Below, piece after piece: positions 3,548-13,616 of a stretch of 16,879 nt of DNA. The translations under genes and the position numbers were made by a program. Position 1 is the stretch's first letter. Every line of letters begins with the position of its first letter. Origin of the DNA: an uncultured archaeon (GTDB lineage Archaea; Thermoproteota; Nitrososphaeria; Nitrososphaerales; CALBXV01); NCBI GenBank assembly GCA_937890045.1, contig CALBXV010000547.1, positions 1 to 16,879 of the forward strand, read 5' to 3'. Under the pieces are notes generated by a model. It saw nothing but the letters and a program-made list of their open reading frames with translations. It made no database searches and had not been told where the DNA came from.

Positions 3548-3967
3548 ATGGGTGTATTAGCAAATGATTTAAATCCAGATACTTGGATAGGTTTAACTTT
3601 TCCACTTGGTAGGTCTGAGGGAGTTGGGTTTTTCAATCAAAGTAAAACTCTTGTTGAACAATCTTTAAGTAATTTAGAAAACCTTTTGAAAACTATTCCT
3701 GGTGAAAGAGTTCAACAACCTTTGTTTGGATCTAAATTACATCATATATTATTTGAACAAATTGATGGTGATATAGAAGAAGAAGTAAAAAGTGCAATAG
3801 ATGATGCAGTGTCAATATGGCTACCTTATATAACTATTGCTGATGTATCAGTTAATCAGGATATGACAAACCCTAATATGATTAGTGTACGAATTAAATT
3901 TAGTACAACTTTAGATCCTGAAAATTTAGATACATTGACATTACCTTTTAATACTACCCCAGGTTAG
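3548..3967 (+). CDS. 25: Baseplate wedge subunit, gp25-like (gpW/gp25 family)
   Basis: This 139-residue protein is close to T4 gp25 (132 residues). It carries the family signature near residues 52-65: GERVQQPLFGSKLH, containing the conserved Glu-Arg pair (E53, R54) and the following FGS. An acidic helix (EEEVKSAIDDAVSIWLP) and a C-terminal beta strand pair (MISVRIKFST) follow, as in the family. In T4-like and other contractile systems gp25 sits at the inner baseplate, joins the gp6 ring to the hub and provides the strand that starts sheath polymerisation. It is followed within 10 bases by gp6, the usual neighbour order. Confidence 0.93.
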   Translation: MGVLANDLNPDTWIGLTFPLGRSEGVGFFNQSKTLVEQSLSNLENLLKTIPGERVQQPLFGSKLHHILFEQIDGDIEEEVKSAIDDAVSIWLPYITIADVSVNQDMTNPNMISVRIKFSTTLDPENLDTLTLPFNTTPG

Positions 3968-3977
3968 GAGATAGAAT

Positions 3978-5999
3978 ATGCCGGTTAAGGATATTAAAAA
4001 AGAAGTAAGATATTTAAATAAAGATTTTGCTACATTTCGAAATGATTTAATAGAATTTTCAAAAGTTTATTTTCCAGATACATATAGTGATTTTAATGAA
4101 TCATCTCCAGGTATGATGTTTATTGAAATGGCTTCTTATGTGGGAGATGTTCTTTCATATTACATAGATAATCAATTTAAAGAATCGTTGTTAGCATATG
4201 CTGAAGAAAGAAAAACTATTTATGAAATAGTTCAATCTTTAGGATACAAACCAAAATTATCAGCACCATCAGTTACTAAAGCAGATGTTTTTCAAATAGT
4301 ACCAGCAACTGGAACAGGAGATGCTGTACAACCTGATATGACTTATGCTTTAACTATTGATGATGGAATGAGAATAGAATCCCAAACAAATAATGTTATA
4401 TTTAGAACTTTAGATGATGTTAATTTTAAATTTTCTGGTTCTTTTGATCCAATGACAGTTGATATTTATGAAACAAGTACTGTTACTAACTTACCGACTT
4501 ATTATTTGTTAAAGAAGAAGGCAACATTGGTTAGTGGAAAAATTGCTACAGAATATTTTGATATGGCATCTGCTCAAAAATATTCTAAGATTACTTTAGC
4601 AAATTCAAACGTTATGGATATTATAAATGTAACTGATAGTGATAGTAATAAATGGTATGAAGTAGATGTTTTAGCACAAGATACTATATTTGAACAAGCA
4701 GAAAATACTACTACATCTGATCCAGATTTAGCACAATATAATGATACTGCTCCGTATTTATTAAAATTAAGAAAAGTAACTCGTCGATTTATATCAAGAA
4801 TTAATAAAGATAATAAAACTGAATTAAGATTTGGGGCTGGAGTATCGGATAGTCCAGATGAAGAGATTATTCCAAATCCAGATAGTATAGGATCAACTTT
4901 ACCGGGCGGTGATAATAAATTTGATGCTGCATTTGATCCAACTAATTTTCTTAAAACTAAAACTTATGGTCAGGCACCTTCTAATACTACTTTGAAGGTA
5001 GTATATTCTTATGGTGGTAGTGTAAGTGATAATGTTGCAGCAGGTGAAATTAGAAATCTTTCTGAGGTGTCTTTTACTATTGATGAAGGATCATTGGATA
5101 GTGCTACTTTATCTACAGTAAAAAGTTCAGTAGCAGTAAATAATCCAGACCCCGCAACAGGTGGAAAGAGTTCAGAGAGTTTAATTGAAATGAAAAATAA
5201 TGCACTTGCTCATTTTCAAGCACAAGCTCGATGTGTAACTAAGGAAGATTATATTAGTAGAATTTATACATTGCCAGCAAAATTTGGTAATGTTGCAAAA
5301 GCATATGTTGTGCAAGATGAACAATTAGAGGCATCTACTGATGCAGTTAAAGAAAAAACTAAAGGTAGTAATTTAGTTAAGAAGGGAGTTATTAAGGAAA
5401 ATTTAACTCCAGAAGAGGAAGATCAACTTGCTATTAAAGCTGGAAAATCTACTCGGATTCCAAATCCATTAGCACTAAATGCATATCTGTTAGGATATAA
5501 TGCAAATAAAAAATTGGTTGCTTTAAATTATGCTGTTAAAGAAAATATACAAACTTATCTTGGGCAATTTAGAATGGTAACAGATGCAATTAATTTAAAG
5601 GATGCTTGGATTATTAATATTGGTGTTAAATTCAATGTTCTTACTGCTAAGGGATTTAATAAACATGAGATAGTATTGAGATGTATCGAAAAGGTAAAAG
5701 ATTATTTTAATACTGATAACTGGCAAATTAATCAACCAATTATATTAGCTGATTTAGTTTATCAAATGTCTTTGATTGATGGGGTATCTGCAGTAGTTCC
5801 ACCAACACAAGATAATCCTAATTCTCTTCCAATAATAATTGAAAATAAATGGAAAAGCGCAGACGGATATTCTGGTAATATTTATGATATAAATGAAGCA
5901 ACAAAGGATGGGGTTATTTATCCTTCTATGGATCCAAGTTGTTTTGAATTAAAATATCCTGACCTTGATATTCAAGGTAGAGCATTAGGAGATATGTAA
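3978..5999 (+). CDS. 6: Baseplate wedge subunit, gp6-like (baseplate J family)
   Basis: The protein has 673 residues, against 660 for T4 gp6. The N-terminus (DFATFRNDLIEFSKVYFPDT, then FNESSPGMMFIEMASYVGDV) is typical of gp6. Around residues 408-430 it has HFQAQARCVTKEDYISRIY, the 'V-T-x-x-D-Y' segment shared with baseplate J proteins. The C-terminal part (KDAWIINIGVKFNVLTAKG to LADLVYQMSLIDGVSAVVPP) matches the dimerising end of the family. gp6 forms the continuous inner ring that holds the wedges together and clasps gp25 and the hub. The Shine-Dalgarno TAGGAG overlaps the stop of the gp25 gene, so the two are coupled. A Lys/Glu-rich insertion lies at about residues 455-500. Confidence 0.93.
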   Translation: MPVKDIKKEVRYLNKDFATFRNDLIEFSKVYFPDTYSDFNESSPGMMFIEMASYVGDVLSYYIDNQFKESLLAYAEERKTIYEIVQSLGYKPKLSAPSVTKADVFQIVPATGTGDAVQPDMTYALTIDDGMRIESQTNNVIFRTLDDVNFKFSGSFDPMTVDIYETSTVTNLPTYYLLKKKATLVSGKIATEYFDMASAQKYSKITLANSNVMDIINVTDSDSNKWYEVDVLAQDTIFEQAENTTTSDPDLAQYNDTAPYLLKLRKVTRRFISRINKDNKTELRFGAGVSDSPDEEIIPNPDSIGSTLPGGDNKFDAAFDPTNFLKTKTYGQAPSNTTLKVVYSYGGSVSDNVAAGEIRNLSEVSFTIDEGSLDSATLSTVKSSVAVNNPDPATGGKSSESLIEMKNNALAHFQAQARCVTKEDYISRIYTLPAKFGNVAKAYVVQDEQLEASTDAVKEKTKGSNLVKKGVIKENLTPEEEDQLAIKAGKSTRIPNPLALNAYLLGYNANKKLVALNYAVKENIQTYLGQFRMVTDAINLKDAWIINIGVKFNVLTAKGFNKHEIVLRCIEKVKDYFNTDNWQINQPIILADLVYQMSLIDGVSAVVPPTQDNPNSLPIIIENKWKSADGYSGNIYDINEATKDGVIYPSMDPSCFELKYPDLDIQGRALGDM

Positions 6000-7129
6000 T
6001 GTATTATTTTGAGTACGCAGAAAAAGATACAACTTTATATCAGGGTGAAGCAACCCAAAGTGTTAATACAGGGCTTGATGAAATTCTTGAAATAAGAAAA
6101 GATATGAATAGTGCTGGAACAGTTGTTAATGTTACTAGAGCTTTGGTTAAATTTGACTTGGGTTATATATCAGCATCTATTCAAAGAGGTTTAATTCCTA
6201 CTTCTGCAAATTATTATTTAAATTTATATGATGCTAATCCACAACAGTTAGCAACATCTCAAAGTTTATATGCATACCCAGTAAGTCAGAGTTGGGTTAT
6301 GGGTCAGGGAACTTATAGTGATGTTCCATTTACAAAGGAAGGTGCAAGTTGGAGATATAGAGATGGAGAGGGTGTTGCAACTCAATGGGTAAGTGGTTCT
6401 AATGATTCTGGAGGTACTTGGTATAGTGGTAGTGGATACGAAGCTTCTCAGTCATTAAATATTGATACTATAGATATTAGAATGAAGGTAAATGATATTG
6501 TAAATAAGTGGTTATCTGGTACAGTTGCAAATGAAGGATTTATGTTAAAGAGAAGTGGAAGTATTGGTAATACAGATTCTAATGCACCAGAAGGTAGTAC
6601 AGATAAATTAGGACATTTAAGTTTTTTCTCAAGGGATACTCATACAATATATCCACCAAAATTAGAGGTAGAGTGGGATGATTCAAGTTGGACTACGGGT
6701 TCTTTAACACCATTAACTGGATCTGATTTGCAAGATGCAGTAATTTATATGAAGGGGTTAAGGCCAGAATATAAAGAAAATACAAAACATAGATTTAATT
6801 TTGTGGGAAGGACTAGATTTCCAAGAAAAATATATTCTACAACATCCCAAAATCTTACAGTAAAGTATTTACCGAGTGGAAGTACAACGGATATAGATGG
6901 TACATATTATTCTGTTAGGGATGCCTTTACTGAAGATGTAATTGTTCCATTTGGTACAGGTTCAATTGTTAGTTGTGATTCAAACGGTAATTATTTTAAT
7001 TTATGGTTGTCATCATTTCAACCAGAAAGAGATTATAGAATTCTTTTTCAAGTGGTGAGCGGAAGTAATACTACAGATGAATTAGATATGATATTTGATG
7101 ATAGCTGGGAATTTAAAGTGAAGAGATAA
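5999..7129 (+). CDS. DNRLRE-domain structural protein of the baseplate region
   Basis: This protein has 376 residues. Residues about 5-226 have the layout of a DNRLRE (CBM96-like) beta-sandwich: a start with D..LYQGE and N.GLDEILEI, RALVKFDLGYI at 47-57, and a W-containing middle (SQSWVMGQGTYSDVPF, then GASWRYRD). It ends with VNDIVNKWLSG, GFMLKR, GHLSFFSRD and PPKLEVEWDD. In bacteria this domain type occurs on secreted surface and polysaccharide-binding proteins. A second beta-rich, Ig-like part covers about 255-376. The ATG overlaps the gp6 stop (TAATG) and has TAGGAG 7 bases upstream, so it is coupled to gp6. T4 has no such protein here; a peripheral baseplate or carbohydrate-contacting role is inferred. 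Confidence 0.75.
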   Translation: MYYFEYAEKDTTLYQGEATQSVNTGLDEILEIRKDMNSAGTVVNVTRALVKFDLGYISASIQRGLIPTSANYYLNLYDANPQQLATSQSLYAYPVSQSWVMGQGTYSDVPFTKEGASWRYRDGEGVATQWVSGSNDSGGTWYSGSGYEASQSLNIDTIDIRMKVNDIVNKWLSGTVANEGFMLKRSGSIGNTDSNAPEGSTDKLGHLSFFSRDTHTIYPPKLEVEWDDSSWTTGSLTPLTGSDLQDAVIYMKGLRPEYKENTKHRFNFVGRTRFPRKIYSTTSQNLTVKYLPSGSTTDIDGTYYSVRDAFTEDVIVPFGTGSIVSCDSNGNYFNLWLSSFQPERDYRILFQVVSGSNTTDELDMIFDDSWEFKVKR

Positions 7130-7130
7130 A

Positions 7131-8717
7131 ATGCCATATACTAAAGAAGAATTAGATAGTAATGAACATTATCAAGATATAATTTCAGCAAATAGAAGAT
7201 CTTATGACGAACAAGTAGAAAGAGAATTTGTTGCTATGAGAGCTACTGGGTCTCGTGCAAATTCAACACCAACTTTAAGAAATGAGGATGGTTCTATTAT
7301 TTTATATGAAGATCCAGATGATGGTAGTGGTTTAAATAGACCAAATCAATTTGTTGCTGTTGAAGCGACACAACCAGCAATAAGAAAAAAATTATTGAAT
7401 AGTGTTGTAGATAGAACTATAACAGAATTAAGTGTTAATATTGATGAGGGTAGTGGATTAAGTATAGAAGAACTTTTTGCAGAATATGATAGATTAAAAG
7501 ATGATATATCACCAACTGGGACTTTATTATCTCATAGTTATTTAATTGAAGTAAGTAGAACTTATGTGTCTGGAGAAGATCCAGAAATAGTTGCACTTAA
7601 AGAAGCATTAGCTACTCAAATAATGCAATTGCAAGATGCACAAACTGCATTACAAGAGGTTCAACAACAATTACAAGCTGAATTGGCAAATGCACAAGCA
7701 GCTGCGACAGGTGGTACTACAACAACAACTACAACTACAGTTCCAGCAACTGATCAAGAAGCTTACACTACTTATGTAACTGAGATGGAAGGTTATGCTA
7801 ATACAAAAAGACCATATACATATGATGAGTGGGTACAATTTGATAAACCTGCCGCTTCAGCTGGATGGGATAAACTTTTGATTATTGATCATCCCCATGA
7901 AATGATTGATGATCCATATACACATACATTTTCTTCAACTCGTGATAAAATTCATGAGATAATAAGAGTTGCAGCGCAAGGTGATGATTCACTTACTTAT
8001 CTATGGCATTGGAAAGCATCAGGTGAACAAGGAGATTATCAAATTTTTACACCAATATCCGAACAATATGAACAAATGGCTTTATCAGATGGTGAGAATG
8101 CAGGATTGGATCTTGATGGTGCAAGTATTATTGATGCAACACACCACAGGAGTGGTTTTGGGTTTATGCTACTAGATGGAATTACTATGGAAAATTTTTA
8201 TGTAAAGTGTAAGGTAAGTGATAGGTCTGGAGAAGCTTGGTCTGATACAGTTGAATTTAGAATTACTCCATCCGCACAAGCAACATCTACTGCAGGTGCA
8301 GCTGCCCAGGATAGAGGTGGTGGTAGTGGATGTTTTGTTGGTGGAACTCAAATTCAAATGAATGAAGGAGTAAAATTTATTGAAGATATTAAAGTGGGTG
8401 ATGTTGTAAAATCATTTGATGTAGGAATAAGTTCAATTATTGATTCTGAAGTAACAAAAACATATGTTCATAGTGATAGATACTATATGATTTTAAATGG
8501 AACTATTAAAACTACTTCAATTCATCCATTTTATACAGATGGCAAGTGGGTAGAAGCTGGAGACTTGTCAGTTGGAAATAAAATACTTCATGTAGATGGG
8601 TTAGAACATACGATAGAGACAATTGAATTAAGTGATGAATCAGTAATAGTATATAATCTTGAAGTAGATGGAACTCATAATTATTTTGCAGAAGGATATT
8701 TGGTTCATAATAAATAA
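7131..8717 (+). CDS. Baseplate-region protein with C-terminal Hint (intein-like) domain
   Basis: This protein has 528 residues in four parts. Residues 1-150 are an unknown domain, and 150-193 are a Gln/Ala-rich coiled coil (LQEVQQQLQAELANAQ). An eight-Thr linker (196-203) follows. Residues about 245-380 are beta-rich and end in FYVKCKVSDRSGEAWSDTVE, like a PKD or Ig-type domain. After a GGGSG hinge, residues 401-528 are a Hint domain: Cys401 in CFVGGTQI, the TTSIHPF block (Thr462, His465), and VYNLEVDGTHNYFAEGYLVH with terminal His526-Asn527. The only residue after Asn527 is Lys528, so there is no C-extein. Cleavage before Cys401 is chemically possible by family precedent, but splicing is not. 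The first three parts are not recognised as a named baseplate protein. It follows the DNRLRE gene by one base. Confidence 0.8.
   Translation: MPYTKEELDSNEHYQDIISANRRSYDEQVEREFVAMRATGSRANSTPTLRNEDGSIILYEDPDDGSGLNRPNQFVAVEATQPAIRKKLLNSVVDRTITELSVNIDEGSGLSIEELFAEYDRLKDDISPTGTLLSHSYLIEVSRTYVSGEDPEIVALKEALATQIMQLQDAQTALQEVQQQLQAELANAQAAATGGTTTTTTTTVPATDQEAYTTYVTEMEGYANTKRPYTYDEWVQFDKPAASAGWDKLLIIDHPHEMIDDPYTHTFSSTRDKIHEIIRVAAQGDDSLTYLWHWKASGEQGDYQIFTPISEQYEQMALSDGENAGLDLDGASIIDATHHRSGFGFMLLDGITMENFYVKCKVSDRSGEAWSDTVEFRITPSAQATSTAGAAAQDRGGGSGCFVGGTQIQMNEGVKFIEDIKVGDVVKSFDVGISSIIDSEVTKTYVHSDRYYMILNGTIKTTSIHPFYTDGKWVEAGDLSVGNKILHVDGLEHTIETIELSDESVIVYNLEVDGTHNYFAEGYLVHNK
8331..8714 (+). other. Hint domain segment within the preceding gene
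   Basis: This segment codes residues 401-528 of the gene at 7131. It has the features of a minimal Hint fold: a first-position Cys followed by VGGTQI, an IEDIKVGDVV strand, a T-x-x-H block (462-465) and a C-terminal YFAEGYLVHN. About 127 residues from Cys to Asn fits an endonuclease-free mini-intein or bacterial intein-like domain. No homing endonuclease motif is present. The residue after Asn is Lys rather than Cys, Ser or Thr. Confidence 0.85.
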
Positions 8718-8783
8718 TCTAAATGAAATTATTCATATTTAAATTAAAAAACAAAAGAATATTATTACAGAAAGGATAGGAAA

Positions 8784-11700
8784 GTGGCATTAAAACATAT
8801 TCTAAATAGATTAAATCCTAGAGATGCTGAGATAATACATTCTCCTGTTCCAGTACCAGTACATGATTTTGGAAAACGGGGAGATTATGTTGAACTTCAT
8901 GTTTATGATGTAAATGATAATTATTTGGATTCCAGTATTATTGAAGATTTTATGGATGGTGATCAATTAAAACTTAAACCTGGAAATGATTTAAGAGATA
9001 TGGGATTTTCGGAAGGAAGGTATATAGTAGATTATAATTTTTTAAGAAGAGTTGGTGGTACAGAAGAAACAGTTTTAGTTAATGCAGATAAGTCAATATA
9101 TAAGGGAGAGTATTATGTAACAGATGAAGATAAAATTTATAAGGGTACTGAACCTGTAATTGGTCAGGGTGATGGTGGAAATGTGGATCAACCCGTTGAA
9201 GTTTTTGTAGAGGATTATAAATTTTTTATTCAAGAAATATCACCTTCAAGAAGAGAAGTTAGATTAGCACCATTAGATATTCAAGATAATGAATATTTAA
9301 AAGAATTTGAAAACCTTGCAGTTACAGAAGTTAGGTATGAACCAATTGAAAGAAGTTTATTTGGTAGTATAGCTTTAAATCCAGGTGGGCAATCTGGAGC
9401 AGTTCCAACATTAGGTGCTGATACTCAATGGAAAGCAACCTTGCATAATGATGATGGTGGATTTATTGAAGAAATGGTAGGTGGAACTATTACTATAAAT
9501 GATGCTTTTCTTGTTAGATATAAGGAAGAAGTTAGTTGGATACCGAATCCAAATGCTGGAACATCAACAGTTGCACCCGCAGGTGATACTATTCCTGCAG
9601 TAAAACAAATTCAAGATCCAGAAGTTCTTCCTAAGAAGAAACAATTAAAACGTGTGAAAGAAAATAAAAGGAAAAATTTAAAAAGATTAGAGGAAAGCAT
9701 TACATCTAATTTACCAAAAGGGAAAAAGAATACTATTGATAGGGGTGAAGATAGAGCTAGTTCTGGTGGTGGCGGTGGTGGCGCTGCTGGAGGTCCTCCA
9801 GATGATATATTAATGAGTGTAAAATATGAGGTTATATGGGAAACAACTGATATTCCACAATTTGCTCGCACGCTTGATGATAGTGGTGCACCTGGTTCAC
9901 GAGGTGGTGCTGGTGCTGGTGGCGGTGGTGGTGCCGGCCGTGGTCGACGTGGAAGAACTAGTGGTGCTGGTGCTGGTGGCGGTGGTGGTGCCGGCCGTGG
10001 TCGACGTGGAAGAACTAGTGGTGCTGAAACAAGACAGCCCACACCAAAAACCAAAAGAAAAAGAAAAAAAGAAAAAGTTGAAGAAGAAACTTTAATAGTT
10101 AAAAAGCCTGGTGGTAAGAAAGTAACTCCACCAACAGAAATAAAGGATGAGGTAAAAATAGTAAAAGGAAATGTAGAAAAGAAAAAGAAGAAAAAGAAGA
10201 AACTACCAGCAAAACTTCCAGGAAGGCCCAAAGCTCCAACTCAAATAAAACAAATAACATATGTTCCAATTTATAAAGATTTTACTGCTATAGTAACAAA
10301 GGTTATTGATAAGAATACAATAGAGTTAGATAAATCATATATACAATCAGCTGCATCGGTTGGTAATTTAGATGGTGCATATATGGGATCTAAACCAAGA
10401 CAAAAAGTATCTTTTTATGTTGATTATAAAACGGCTACTAAATCAGATATGCGTACATTATTGAATTTTGGCGATAACATAATGTCTTTAGCAACAAATT
10501 GGAAATATGATAAGGATAGTATTGTTAATTGGCCACATTCAATAATATATAAATTATACGAATCGTTACCAGATGATATTAGTGTGTTTGATAAATGTAC
10601 AGTTGTTAAAGAAATGTTATCTTCAGTTGAAGAGGAAGTATTTCTTGTTCCATTTGTAGATGAAAAAATAGATGCTATTTTTCTCAGGTCTCCAAATTTT
10701 GATAGTAAGGATGGAGAATCTTTAAAACCTGCGATAAGAAGCAGACCAACTGATTATGAAACTAAGTTAGATATATTAAGTGGTGATGGAAGTGTATCTC
10801 AAAGTTTAATAAATGAATTTATAAGTCAAAGTGTAGATAGTGTAGATTTAAGTATTGATTATTCCCAGCATGAAAATTATGTACATTTTGGATCTGCAGA
10901 AAAAAGATTAAAAAACTTTAAATATAAGTTACAACAAATAGAATCTTATGTAGAACAGAGTTCTTCTTTAGAATCAATAAGTGGAGCTCGTGCTGATATA
11001 GGTAAATGGGAAATGAAACAACGGAAGTTTATTAATGAATTTGATGGATATGAAAAATATCTTTATGAAAAGAGTTCATCTTATTCTACAAGTTCTAATG
11101 GTGAATTTTTTGATGGTGCTTGGCCAAAGGAAAGTGGAACAGGGACAGTCGCAGATCCTTATGTAGTTTATCATAGTACTTCTTCAAAATCATCAAATTG
11201 GTTTACTACAACAGCAAACACAGCATCTTTATATGATGTTAATAATCCAAATAGGTTAGTAAATTTATTGCCTCAACATATAAGAGATAATGATGAAAAT
11301 AGTACTTTTTTAGATTTTATGGATATGATAGGTCATCATTTTGATATTGTATGGTCTTATATAAGAAGTTTAACTGATGTACATTCGAGGGATGATAAGT
11401 TAACAGAGGGAGTTTCAAAGGATTTACTTTATGATGTTGCAAAGTCTCTTGGGTTAAAGTTATTTGATGGAAAAGATTTAGTACCACTTAGTAGATATGC
11501 TTTAGGCAAGGAAGTTACTGGTTCTAAGGCAACAACTCCTGTATATTCAGAAGTACCAGAAAGAGATATATCGAGAGAAATATGGAAGAGATTATTAAAT
11601 AATTTACCATTTTTCTTAAAAAATAAAGGTACGGTTAGAGCATTAAAAGCAATAATAAATTGTTATGGTATTCCATCAACTATTTTAAGAGTTAGAGAAT

Positions 11701-13616
11701 TCGGTGGACCAGATTTACCTGGAACTGCAACTTCTTATTCTATAACAAAGAAATTCACAAAAGCATTAAATTTTAGAGCTGGTCAATATATTGCAGCTGC
11801 TTGGCAAAATGATTCAAGAACTGGTAGAAGGCCAGATACAGTAGAACTTAGATTTAGAAGTTTGGGAAGTGATGGAACAACTGATAGAACATTAGTTAGA
11901 GATAAAGCTGGTGGTTGGGCATTAATGTTATTAGATAATGCTTCTGTTGATAATATTGGTAGGGTTGCATTTAGATTGTCTGGTTCTGATGGATATAAAA
12001 CTGTATCATCCTCAGCATATTCTGTATTTGATGGTGATTTTTGGTCTGTTATGTTAACGAGAATGTCTGCAAGTGATGCGCAATTATCAAGTGATGCAAT
12101 AGATCAGAGTATAAAATATACTCTTTATACAAAAAAATATGATTCTGGAAGAAGTAAAATTTTCTTAAATGACCAAATATCAATGACTGTACCTGGCAAT
12201 GCTAATGTTGCATCTCAATCATATAATGCTGCATTTACTGGAAGTTCTGGTGCAGGAAAACTTATACTTGGTGGATTGGGATCTGGTGCTGTTGGATCAC
12301 AACTTACAGGTTCAATGATGGAATTTAGATTGTGGGGAACATCATTAAATGAAAGTGCATTTGATAATCATGTTGCATCACCGAAGTCATATAATGGAAA
12401 TCATGCCTCATCATCTTGGACTGATTTAATATTAAGATATTCTTTTGATGATAATATAGATTTAAGTTCTGATCCAAATATTAGAGATATAACTCCTGAC
12501 CAAACATATGAGTCTAGTGGTAGCGCAAAAGGGTATACTGCTTTTAATAAAGCATCATCTTTTAGTTCAGTAGTAGATGAAGAAAAAATGTTTGTTCCAA
12601 ATGTTGGTCCAAATAGGAGAATATCTAATAAGGTAAGAATTGAATCTAGCAGTTTAGCTAATGGTCAATTGAGTATGCAAAAAAGGTCTGAATTAAGTTC
12701 ATATGATTTTGCTCCAGTTGATTCAAATAAACTTGGAATATATTTTGCACCAACCGATGTAGTAAATGAAGATATTATTCGTTCTGTAGCTAATTTAGAT
12801 TTTAATCAATATTTGGGTGATCCAAGAGATAAAACTAAATATACTTATAGAGGACTTGAAAAGATAAGGGGTACTTATTGGCAAAAATGGAATAGTCCAG
12901 CAAATTTTTGGGCATATATGAGAATGATTAGATTTTATGATCAAACTATTTTTGACCAATTGAAAGCTTTAGTTCCAGCTCGTTCTAAACCAACTTTCGG
13001 TACGGTTATTGAACCTAATATATTTGAAAGACCAAAAGATCCTTCTCTACAAAGAGATCCAACTTATGAAGATTTATCATTCAGGGCTACAATTAATTTA
13101 ACTAGTTATGGACCAGCAGCTGCTTTAAGTATGAGTGCAGAAAATCCTTATTATGAAGGATCTGCGTCTGCTGATATATTTGATGAACCAAATTTGAGTG
13201 TTATTGATTCAATTGATGGAAAACATGGATTTGGTAGTTTATATGCAACCGCTTCTGTTACAGTTGGGGGTCCAGATTATGTATTTATAGAAGGTGCACA
13301 ACCATTTATATCGGAATCAAGACTTTCTGAACATAATAGAGAAAGAGTATTTTATTATTCTTCTTCTTTGAGTCAATCGTTGCATAGTACTTATGGATTT
13401 TTACCTTATGCATATTCTTCTTCTGAGTTTAGATCAAGAGGGGATACAAAATATTACCAATCATCTACTTTAGCTAATTTGTTTTTTGAAGGATGTACGC
13501 AAACTTTTAATACAACACCAGATGGTGGGCCAGTTATAGAGACAACCATTGTTAAACCAACAAGACTTGTTGTACAGGAACCTGGTGAATCTAGACTTAA
13601 AACTGAGCTTGGCTAA
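8784..13616 (+). CDS. Giant tail/baseplate structural protein with LamG-like domain
   Basis: This protein has 1,610 residues and starts at GTG after AAAGGATAGG. Residues 1-180 are a beta-rich domain with FFIQEISPSRREVRLAPL near the end. Residues about 240-480 are a long low-complexity linker: Lys/Arg clusters (284-305), Gly runs, two identical 19-residue Gly/Arg repeats (375-412) and eight consecutive Lys (466-473). Around 840-975 lies a helical segment like tail protein I (FLDFMDMIGHHFDIVWSYI; FFLKNKGTVRALKAIINCYG; IPSTILRVREFGG). Residues about 985-1220 read as a LamG/concanavalin-type beta-sandwich (MMEFRLWGTSLNE; LILRYSFDD). The part after 1338 includes LVPARSKPTFGTVIEPNIFE, a conserved-looking tail. 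It probably ties the wedge to outer fibres, in the place held by gp7-gp10 in T4. That role is inferred from order and domains. A 66-base gap without features precedes it. Confidence 0.8.
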   Translation: MALKHILNRLNPRDAEIIHSPVPVPVHDFGKRGDYVELHVYDVNDNYLDSSIIEDFMDGDQLKLKPGNDLRDMGFSEGRYIVDYNFLRRVGGTEETVLVNADKSIYKGEYYVTDEDKIYKGTEPVIGQGDGGNVDQPVEVFVEDYKFFIQEISPSRREVRLAPLDIQDNEYLKEFENLAVTEVRYEPIERSLFGSIALNPGGQSGAVPTLGADTQWKATLHNDDGGFIEEMVGGTITINDAFLVRYKEEVSWIPNPNAGTSTVAPAGDTIPAVKQIQDPEVLPKKKQLKRVKENKRKNLKRLEESITSNLPKGKKNTIDRGEDRASSGGGGGGAAGGPPDDILMSVKYEVIWETTDIPQFARTLDDSGAPGSRGGAGAGGGGGAGRGRRGRTSGAGAGGGGGAGRGRRGRTSGAETRQPTPKTKRKRKKEKVEEETLIVKKPGGKKVTPPTEIKDEVKIVKGNVEKKKKKKKKLPAKLPGRPKAPTQIKQITYVPIYKDFTAIVTKVIDKNTIELDKSYIQSAASVGNLDGAYMGSKPRQKVSFYVDYKTATKSDMRTLLNFGDNIMSLATNWKYDKDSIVNWPHSIIYKLYESLPDDISVFDKCTVVKEMLSSVEEEVFLVPFVDEKIDAIFLRSPNFDSKDGESLKPAIRSRPTDYETKLDILSGDGSVSQSLINEFISQSVDSVDLSIDYSQHENYVHFGSAEKRLKNFKYKLQQIESYVEQSSSLESISGARADIGKWEMKQRKFINEFDGYEKYLYEKSSSYSTSSNGEFFDGAWPKESGTGTVADPYVVYHSTSSKSSNWFTTTANTASLYDVNNPNRLVNLLPQHIRDNDENSTFLDFMDMIGHHFDIVWSYIRSLTDVHSRDDKLTEGVSKDLLYDVAKSLGLKLFDGKDLVPLSRYALGKEVTGSKATTPVYSEVPERDISREIWKRLLNNLPFFLKNKGTVRALKAIINCYGIPSTILRVREFGGPDLPGTATSYSITKKFTKALNFRAGQYIAAAWQNDSRTGRRPDTVELRFRSLGSDGTTDRTLVRDKAGGWALMLLDNASVDNIGRVAFRLSGSDGYKTVSSSAYSVFDGDFWSVMLTRMSASDAQLSSDAIDQSIKYTLYTKKYDSGRSKIFLNDQISMTVPGNANVASQSYNAAFTGSSGAGKLILGGLGSGAVGSQLTGSMMEFRLWGTSLNESAFDNHVASPKSYNGNHASSSWTDLILRYSFDDNIDLSSDPNIRDITPDQTYESSGSAKGYTAFNKASSFSSVVDEEKMFVPNVGPNRRISNKVRIESSSLANGQLSMQKRSELSSYDFAPVDSNKLGIYFAPTDVVNEDIIRSVANLDFNQYLGDPRDKTKYTYRGLEKIRGTYWQKWNSPANFWAYMRMIRFYDQTIFDQLKALVPARSKPTFGTVIEPNIFERPKDPSLQRDPTYEDLSFRATINLTSYGPAAALSMSAENPYYEGSASADIFDEPNLSVIDSIDGKHGFGSLYATASVTVGGPDYVFIEGAQPFISESRLSEHNRERVFYYSSSLSQSLHSTYGFLPYAYSSSEFRSRGDTKYYQSSTLANLFFEGCTQTFNTTPDGGPVIETTIVKPTRLVVQEPGESRLKTELG
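9906..10025 (+). repeat. Two identical 57-bp tandem repeats (Gly/Arg coding)
   Basis: Copy 1 is 9906-9962 and copy 2 is 9963-10019; they match base for base. The first 6 bases of a third copy (GGTGCT) follow at 10020-10025. Each codes 19 residues, GAGAGGGGGAGRGRRGRTS, in frame in the giant tail protein. The units are far richer in G and C than the surrounding genes and use codons such as GGC, GCC, CGT and CGA that are rare around them. The complete identity implies recent duplication. Confidence 0.95.

Follow-up and report, generated by a model that had tools for sequence, protein, structure and literature searches.

We analyzed a 16,879-nucleotide stretch of DNA (referred to below as the window: contig CALBXV010000547.1 of assembly GCA_937890045.1), in which a 528-residue protein encoded on the + strand at 7131..8717 ends in a Hint domain. 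The reading that we favor, with a probability of roughly 0.55, is that this domain is a 128-residue C-terminal bacterial intein-like (BIL) domain of type A, which was added by recombination and would remove itself, releasing residues 1-400 of an accessory virion-type protein. The fold of the domain, its residue set, its position as an add-on, its mobility and its conservation are described in the following sections.

A complete Hint domain at the C-terminus

The domain occupies residues 401-528 (8331..8714, + strand), and the open reading frame (ORF) stops directly after ...AEGYLVHNK. The Pfam profile PF07591 (PT-HINT) matched residues 408-526 with an E-value of 6.9e-22 and 78.6 bits (cut-off 27.7), and the NCBIfam model TIGR01443 (intein C-terminal region) matched residues 507-527 above its cut-off. 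PF14890 (Intein_splicing) gave 31.8 bits with the whole protein, which is below its cut-off of 35.8, and 38.6 bits, above it, with the domain alone. The Hint domain and residues 1-400 were modelled separately with AlphaFold2 and the Hint model was used for structure searches; it had a pLDDT of 89.9 and a pTM of 0.82. Positions 8331-8717 are thus predicted, from both profile and model, to encode a complete Hint fold, as the initial annotation of the window had suggested. A chance match is excluded by the E-values together with the residue pattern in relatives.

The predicted catalytic residues are Cys401, Thr462 and His465 (in Thr462-Ser-Ile-His465), His526 and Asn527. This is the intact set that had been read from the letters alone, and the glycine-rich hinge reported with it is likewise present as RGGGSG directly before Cys401. 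The +1 residue, Lys528, is the final residue of the protein; with the stop right after it and no C-extein, canonical splicing is not expected, as had also been proposed. Between this stop and the next gene lie 66 bp, which contain no C-extein and hold only a short scar frame, described below. A database protein (P0002; 13 member sequences on three contigs) differs from the window protein by a single residue, and since it has the same length of 528 residues the stop after Lys528 is no local sequencing error. A scan of positions 8200-8900 found four promoter-like sites, compared with 4.2 in shuffled sequences, and no terminator-like sites.

Relationship to known Hint systems

The best PDB sequence match was 2lwy, a BIL domain of C. 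thermocellum (E 4.7e-25), followed by Tetrahymena BIL2 (about 7e-18), while the top-scoring entry named as an intein was DnaX (7cfv, E 7e-10). Foldseek also placed 2lwy first (2.0e-11), with 6y75 next (2.9e-11). Ranking by VIA Z placed Tetrahymena BIL2 first and left BILs tied with inteins. Proximity to BILs by sequence and by Foldseek, the His526-Asn527 pair and a non-nucleophilic +1 residue (Lys528) are the marks of an A-type BIL, and by these testable features the domain is best classed, at the level of sequence, as an A-type BIL without a C-flank. The C. thermocellum domain has the same Cys1, TxxH and His-Asn, also lacks Cys, Ser or Thr at +1, and is likewise set in an accessory protein; the window domain differs from BILs of this type in being followed by a single lysine and in being carried by phage virion-type genes, between which it has moved. 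Tetrahymena BIL2 of the BUBL1 locus (6y75, 6tmm) is reported to conjugate its upstream domain to lysine amines (PMC8616854). Unlike the window domain it is eukaryotic, has ubiquitin-like domains on both sides and is reportedly under zinc control.

Three other classes were considered. PF07591, the family of Hint domains of polymorphic toxins, is the best Pfam match, but most entries named as polymorphic toxins or RHS proteins have a C-flank of about 80-140 residues after Hint, compared with one residue here. The toxin reading was rejected: nothing lies beyond Hint except the lysine, so there is no toxin domain. The initial annotation had taken both Hedgehog-type and intein-like domains as precedents. 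The comparison with BIL domains held in the PDB sequence and fold searches, whereas the Hedgehog autoprocessing domain (1at0) proved the poorer one: it is the weaker match, and the window domain keeps His-Asn. Assignment as a Hedgehog (Hog) domain was also rejected, as the protein ends with Hint and has no sterol- or adduct-recognition region. Phage inteins share the fold. In 16 of 17 intein-like loci (L032-L048), Cys or Ser follows the final Asn together with a long C-flank (L033 has Arg), compared with Lys and then a stop in the window. The domain is not a canonical class 1 intein, since it has no Cys/Ser/Thr C-extein and was added after a natural C-terminus rather than inside a host protein.

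Addition after a natural C-terminus

A search with the whole protein, in which the 7995 candidates sharing most words with the query were scored, found 67 proteins, and 21 of these (P0003-P0023, 367-404 residues, 42-81% identity) are relatives without Hint. Thirteen of the 21 were aligned with the window protein, and all 13 apparently end in a short variable tail past the last conserved strand. In five of them GGS is the terminus, while the window protein continues via RGGGSG into Cys401. The point at which the Hint-less relatives end is the Ala/Gly/Ser-rich linker at 8271..8330 (+ strand), which closes with RGGGSG. These results are from alignment A5 (14 rows); another alignment (A2) was set aside, as it smeared the last strand of the Hint-less relatives over the Hint domain. 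A second gene of the window, 13727, gave a similar picture: a conserved VN is followed by no more than 16 residues in the window protein and two others, and the relatives P0033 and P0062 continue past VN through a linker into Hint. By these comparisons the domain is an add-on placed after the natural C-terminus of its host protein.

Hint was present in 11 of 13 searched records. The two records without it (G001 and G002) are 10,322 bases long, and in G002 locus L003 breaks off within gene 7131, so their lack of Hint is uninformative. Three phages with a syntenic baseplate gene, Microcystis phage Mel-JY01, Flavobacterium phage immuto and an uncultured phage of 484 kb, had no Hint in the roughly 25.8 kb surrounding that gene (0 of 3). 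With Hint-less relatives making up 21 of the 67 proteins, and with close Hint copies ending other kinds of gene, Hint is not a fixed step of baseplate maturation; the initial annotation had raised a maturation step in baseplate assembly as a possibility.

Movement between phage genes

A segment of the window (8327..8765, + strand) is 89.5% identical to positions 9888-10326 of locus L010 by blastn. It runs from the Gly(-1) codon through Hint to the Lys codon and then for a further 51 bp, which include the stop codon. The uncorrected synonymous difference between the two sequences was 0.20 for Hint, compared with 0.49-0.61 in seven other comparisons of the same pair. In L010, however, Hint terminates a different protein, which is related by blastp to the first 257 residues of window gene 8784, and the ORF after Hint is related to residues 494-1608 of that gene. 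Downstream of the Hint stop the window carries a scar frame of 18 codons (MKLFIFKLKNKRILLQKG-stop; 8723..8779, + strand), for which no gene is claimed. It resembles the start (MELFMSKLKNKRIIYWGGNQ) of the gene after Hint in L010, shares KLKNKR with it, and spans part of the 51 bp and slightly beyond. Judged by sequence divergence, the window Hint was moved between phage genes by recombination, the shared DNA being young amid older flanks. In a protein tree the window Hint lies near that of L009 and those of double-Hint proteins, while its DNA with the downstream flank is nearest to L010. The two placements disagree on the donor, and the domain may be a mosaic. The double-Hint proteins (P0024-P0032 and L004 9101-10861) are encoded on contigs without window genes; Cys1 is replaced by Thr in their first Hint, and the second is intact.

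Close Hints with at least 62% identity to that of the window numbered 140, database proteins and locus ORFs being taken together and some counted in both, and their host parts fell into 13 clusters. The largest comprised PKD proteins (57), followed by gene 13727 (28), the double-Hint protein (20), the N-part of gene 8784 (10) and a 105-residue protein (10). Smaller ones were the P0143 type (5), the window's own protein (3, representing one protein), fibre-like proteins (2) and five singles, namely P0061, P0148 and three MGCF proteins that have hardly any host part. In the P0143 type and in all five singles this Hint is non-terminal, with more than 100 residues after it. A tree of 44 Hints required 13 host-label changes for 11 labels (minimum 10), and the Hints of gene 13727, of the 8784 N-part and of PKD proteins were each scattered in it. 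One of the other kinds of gene ended by close copies lies on contigs with no other similarity to window genes (L004-L008).

Among the more distant copies are those at the end of a phrog_32 tail assembly protein (lambda gpI type; the Pfam match to Lambda_tail_I is below cut-off) in L024 (2201-3385) and L025 (7023-8207), where HNK is followed by 15 residues; in L024 this gene lies directly before an ORF of 1852 residues. Others were seen at the ends of further viral-contig proteins (L026-L030) and of proteins that carry the annotation virion structural or tail protein in phages of Erwinia, Dickeya and Alcaligenes; the two of the latter that were translated show collagen-like repeats by eye. Host proteins were called virion-type from neighbourhood, profile or annotation, and copies were counted on contig fragments rather than complete genomes. 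In L031 (8228-10633), an ORF with weak tape-measure matches has a Hint (HNK-P) about 80 residues from its end, which could bear on C-terminal processing of tape-measure proteins. Two proteins, P0042 and P0060, consist almost wholly of tandem Hints; one junction reads VHNK-CF, with a lone Lys between two Hints.

Conservation of the catalytic residues

Conservation was analyzed in a pool of 259 proteins made up of the best 120 of 287 and the best 120 of 158 matches, the 67 whole-protein relatives and a few translated sequences, with overlap between the lists. Hint matches were found in 237 of the 259, and in 139 no more than 30 residues separated the end of the last match from the C-terminus. 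Five of these 139 (P0053, P0149, P0151, P0159 and P0187), all last Hints of multi-Hint proteins, were left out as incomplete; they are degenerate, with no aligned Cys1 or His-Asn. The remaining 134 were reduced to 38 non-redundant rows at <90% identity (mean pairwise identity 52%), most of them metagenomic and of no established phage origin and a few with cellular names.

Only six of 128 columns were invariant in the 38 rows: C1, E18, T62, H65, H126 and N127. Five of the six are predicted catalytic residues, a coincidence with a hypergeometric probability of 2.3e-8 if the rows are treated as unrelated. The sixth, Glu at column 18 (residue 418 of the window protein), matches the catalytic residues in its invariance. 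Pairwise dN/dS between the window Hint and eight others was 0.12-0.43. Overall, sequence conservation makes the terminal Hint look catalytically active.

Gly directly precedes Cys1 in 93 of the 134 terminal Hints, and tails of 1-30 residues follow the final Asn. Lys is found at +1 in 115 of the 134; after removal of redundancy it occurs in 27 of 38 terminal as compared with 8 of 31 non-terminal Hints (Fisher test, 2.6e-4). The opposite holds for Cys, Ser or Thr at +1, found in one of 38 terminal and 8 of 31 non-terminal Hints.

Proposed mechanism and alternatives

From these data we infer the chemistry, timing and product of Hint action and any benefit to the phage. In the favored mechanism, Hint folds and Cys401 would attack the Gly400-Cys401 bond in an N-S acyl shift aided by Thr462 and His465, and Asn527 would cyclize with the aid of His526. 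The main outcome would be free residues 1-400, with a C-terminus resembling that of the Hint-less relatives. Release is expected because there is no usual +1 nucleophile and no C-flank to join; the Cys401 thioester may sometimes be captured by an amine. The initial annotation had considered both cleavage before Cys401 and thioester transfer plausible, and there is precedent for each among BIL domains (PMC4031507, PMC8616854). BILs, which lack the +1 nucleophile, are reported to give mainly cleaved products (PMC4031507, PMC7664689). A-type BILs have also been described as able to splice through attack of the freed amine, i.e. aminolysis (PMC4031507); contrary to this, PMC7765530 states that type A BILs are unable to ligate their flanks.

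Amine transfer is a real option, since PKD-type and similar domains precede phage Hints and Tetrahymena BIL2 sets a precedent (PMC8616854). Hint could hand residues 1-400 on from Cys401 to an amine on another virion protein or on the host envelope, and the resulting isopeptide bond would anchor a surface domain. BIL2, the best or second-best solved match, is reported to form such a bond to Lys and to link other proteins to a ubiquitin-like domain (PMC8616854). Consistent with this, relatives have PKD and InlB-like domains ahead of Hint, there are many entries named 'PKD', collagen-like repeats were seen by eye, and linkers often end in Gly (the 93 of 134 above). Yet no acceptor or partner was identified, hydrolysis is a simpler fate for a thioester, and Hint sits on different genes across phages and hence has no constant partner; we therefore consider conjugation rather unlikely. 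A bolder version is still harder to credit: a mobile C-terminal conjugation cassette, in which the BIL Hint hops between virion genes and passes PKD- or Ig-type surface domains as thioesters to amines of the virion or host surface, with participation of the +1 Lys, giving covalent decoration or attachment without ATP. The covalent cross-linking in baseplate assembly raised in the initial annotation is possible.

The enrichment of +1 Lys and the short tails after Asn could also be explained by splicing, in which Lys528 or a short tail would become linked to Gly400, either by aminolysis as in BILs or via the Lys side-chain amine, and Hint would be excised to leave Gly-Lys(-tail). The aminolysis reported for A-type BILs (PMC4031507) would allow this. 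In the window protein, however, a lone free Lys would have to remain in the site after Asn cyclization, and 11 of the 38 non-redundant copies have another +1 residue, which makes this outcome improbable. We give as little credence to a neutral mobile module with no role for the phage, which would spread by recombination and remove itself at little cost, much like a mini-intein that lacks an endonuclease. The young DNA shared with L010 between old flanks, the 13 host-label changes in the Hint tree, the common Hint-less relatives and the absence of Hint from the syntenic blocks in three named phage records would all fit. Against it, self-removal is hardly needed at a C-terminus, the frequent Gly(-1) and frequent PKD-type hosts point to function, and purifying selection would be left to explain. 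Finally, the degenerate Hints of five multi-Hint proteins show that such domains exist, and the window domain might be catalytically dead and retained as a stable terminal domain of all-beta type; invariance of five catalytic columns in 38 complete terminal copies, in which most columns vary, makes this very improbable. The self-removing A-type BIL thus remains the reading that we favor.

Significance

To our knowledge, BIL domains have few clear biological roles, their cleavage and ligation chemistry being known. Among the titles and abstracts listed in our searches of the open-licence literature (subscription papers and preprints fall outside it), none described Hint domains at the ends of virion proteins of phages. 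Three phage papers, in the parts available, describe inteins in enzymes or none (PMC3556154, PMC5259590, PMC5526547). As far as our searches reach, a mobile family of terminal BILs which end phage virion-type genes and are enriched in +1 Lys is new within that literature. Such a family, in which the catalytic set is invariant, provides small proteins suited to testing. If conjugation is true, phages own an ATP-free route to covalent links on the particle; if only cleavage takes place, they carry a C-terminal module which removes itself and which structural genes acquire by recombination. Whichever reading holds, names such as 'polymorphic toxin-type HINT' (P0115) and 'intein/homing endonuclease' (P0134) are misleading for terminal-Hint proteins.

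The host protein and neighbouring genes

The low-confidence model and the Hint-less relatives suggest that the host protein consists of a helical N-part, a long helix at about residues 151-193, a beta-rich part at about 227-380, which may be Ig-like, the Gly-rich linker and Hint. Residues 1-400 were modelled poorly (mean pLDDT 44.5), with beta strands in 227-305 and 356-380, and the Pfam scan gave no match for an Ig/PKD-like domain in the window protein. The Ig/PKD-like domain placed upstream of Hint in the initial annotation therefore cannot be shown for this protein; Pfam PKD domains are present in other Hint-bearing relatives (L009, L021) and absent here. The baseplate-region setting was borne out by a gp25-like protein (PF04965) encoded at 3548-3967 and a baseplate wedge protein of family phrog_219 at 3978-5999; from this gene order, the 7131-8717 protein itself may belong to the baseplate. 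The ORF at 5999-7129 has an NCBIfam DNRLRE domain match above cut-off (37.6 against 34 bits). No second Hint was found by profile among the other window ORFs of at least 60 residues.

The next gene (8784..13616, + strand) encodes 1610 residues. By blastp its counterpart in L010-L012 is two ORFs, the first ending in Hint. Such a split was seen in L010 (7543-14291), L012 (1919-8688) and L009 (8297-12485), where Hint follows PKD (L009) or InlB-like (L010) domains in the first ORF; in L009 a 195-residue ORF with a PKD-like part lies between the halves. Hint in L009-L012, which marks the point where a gene undivided in the window is split, might conceivably join the two halves in trans. Gene 8784 also contains a Gly/Arg- and Lys-rich stretch with 57-nt repeats (9755-10200), which falls within residues 257-494, the part without a counterpart in the split L010 genes.
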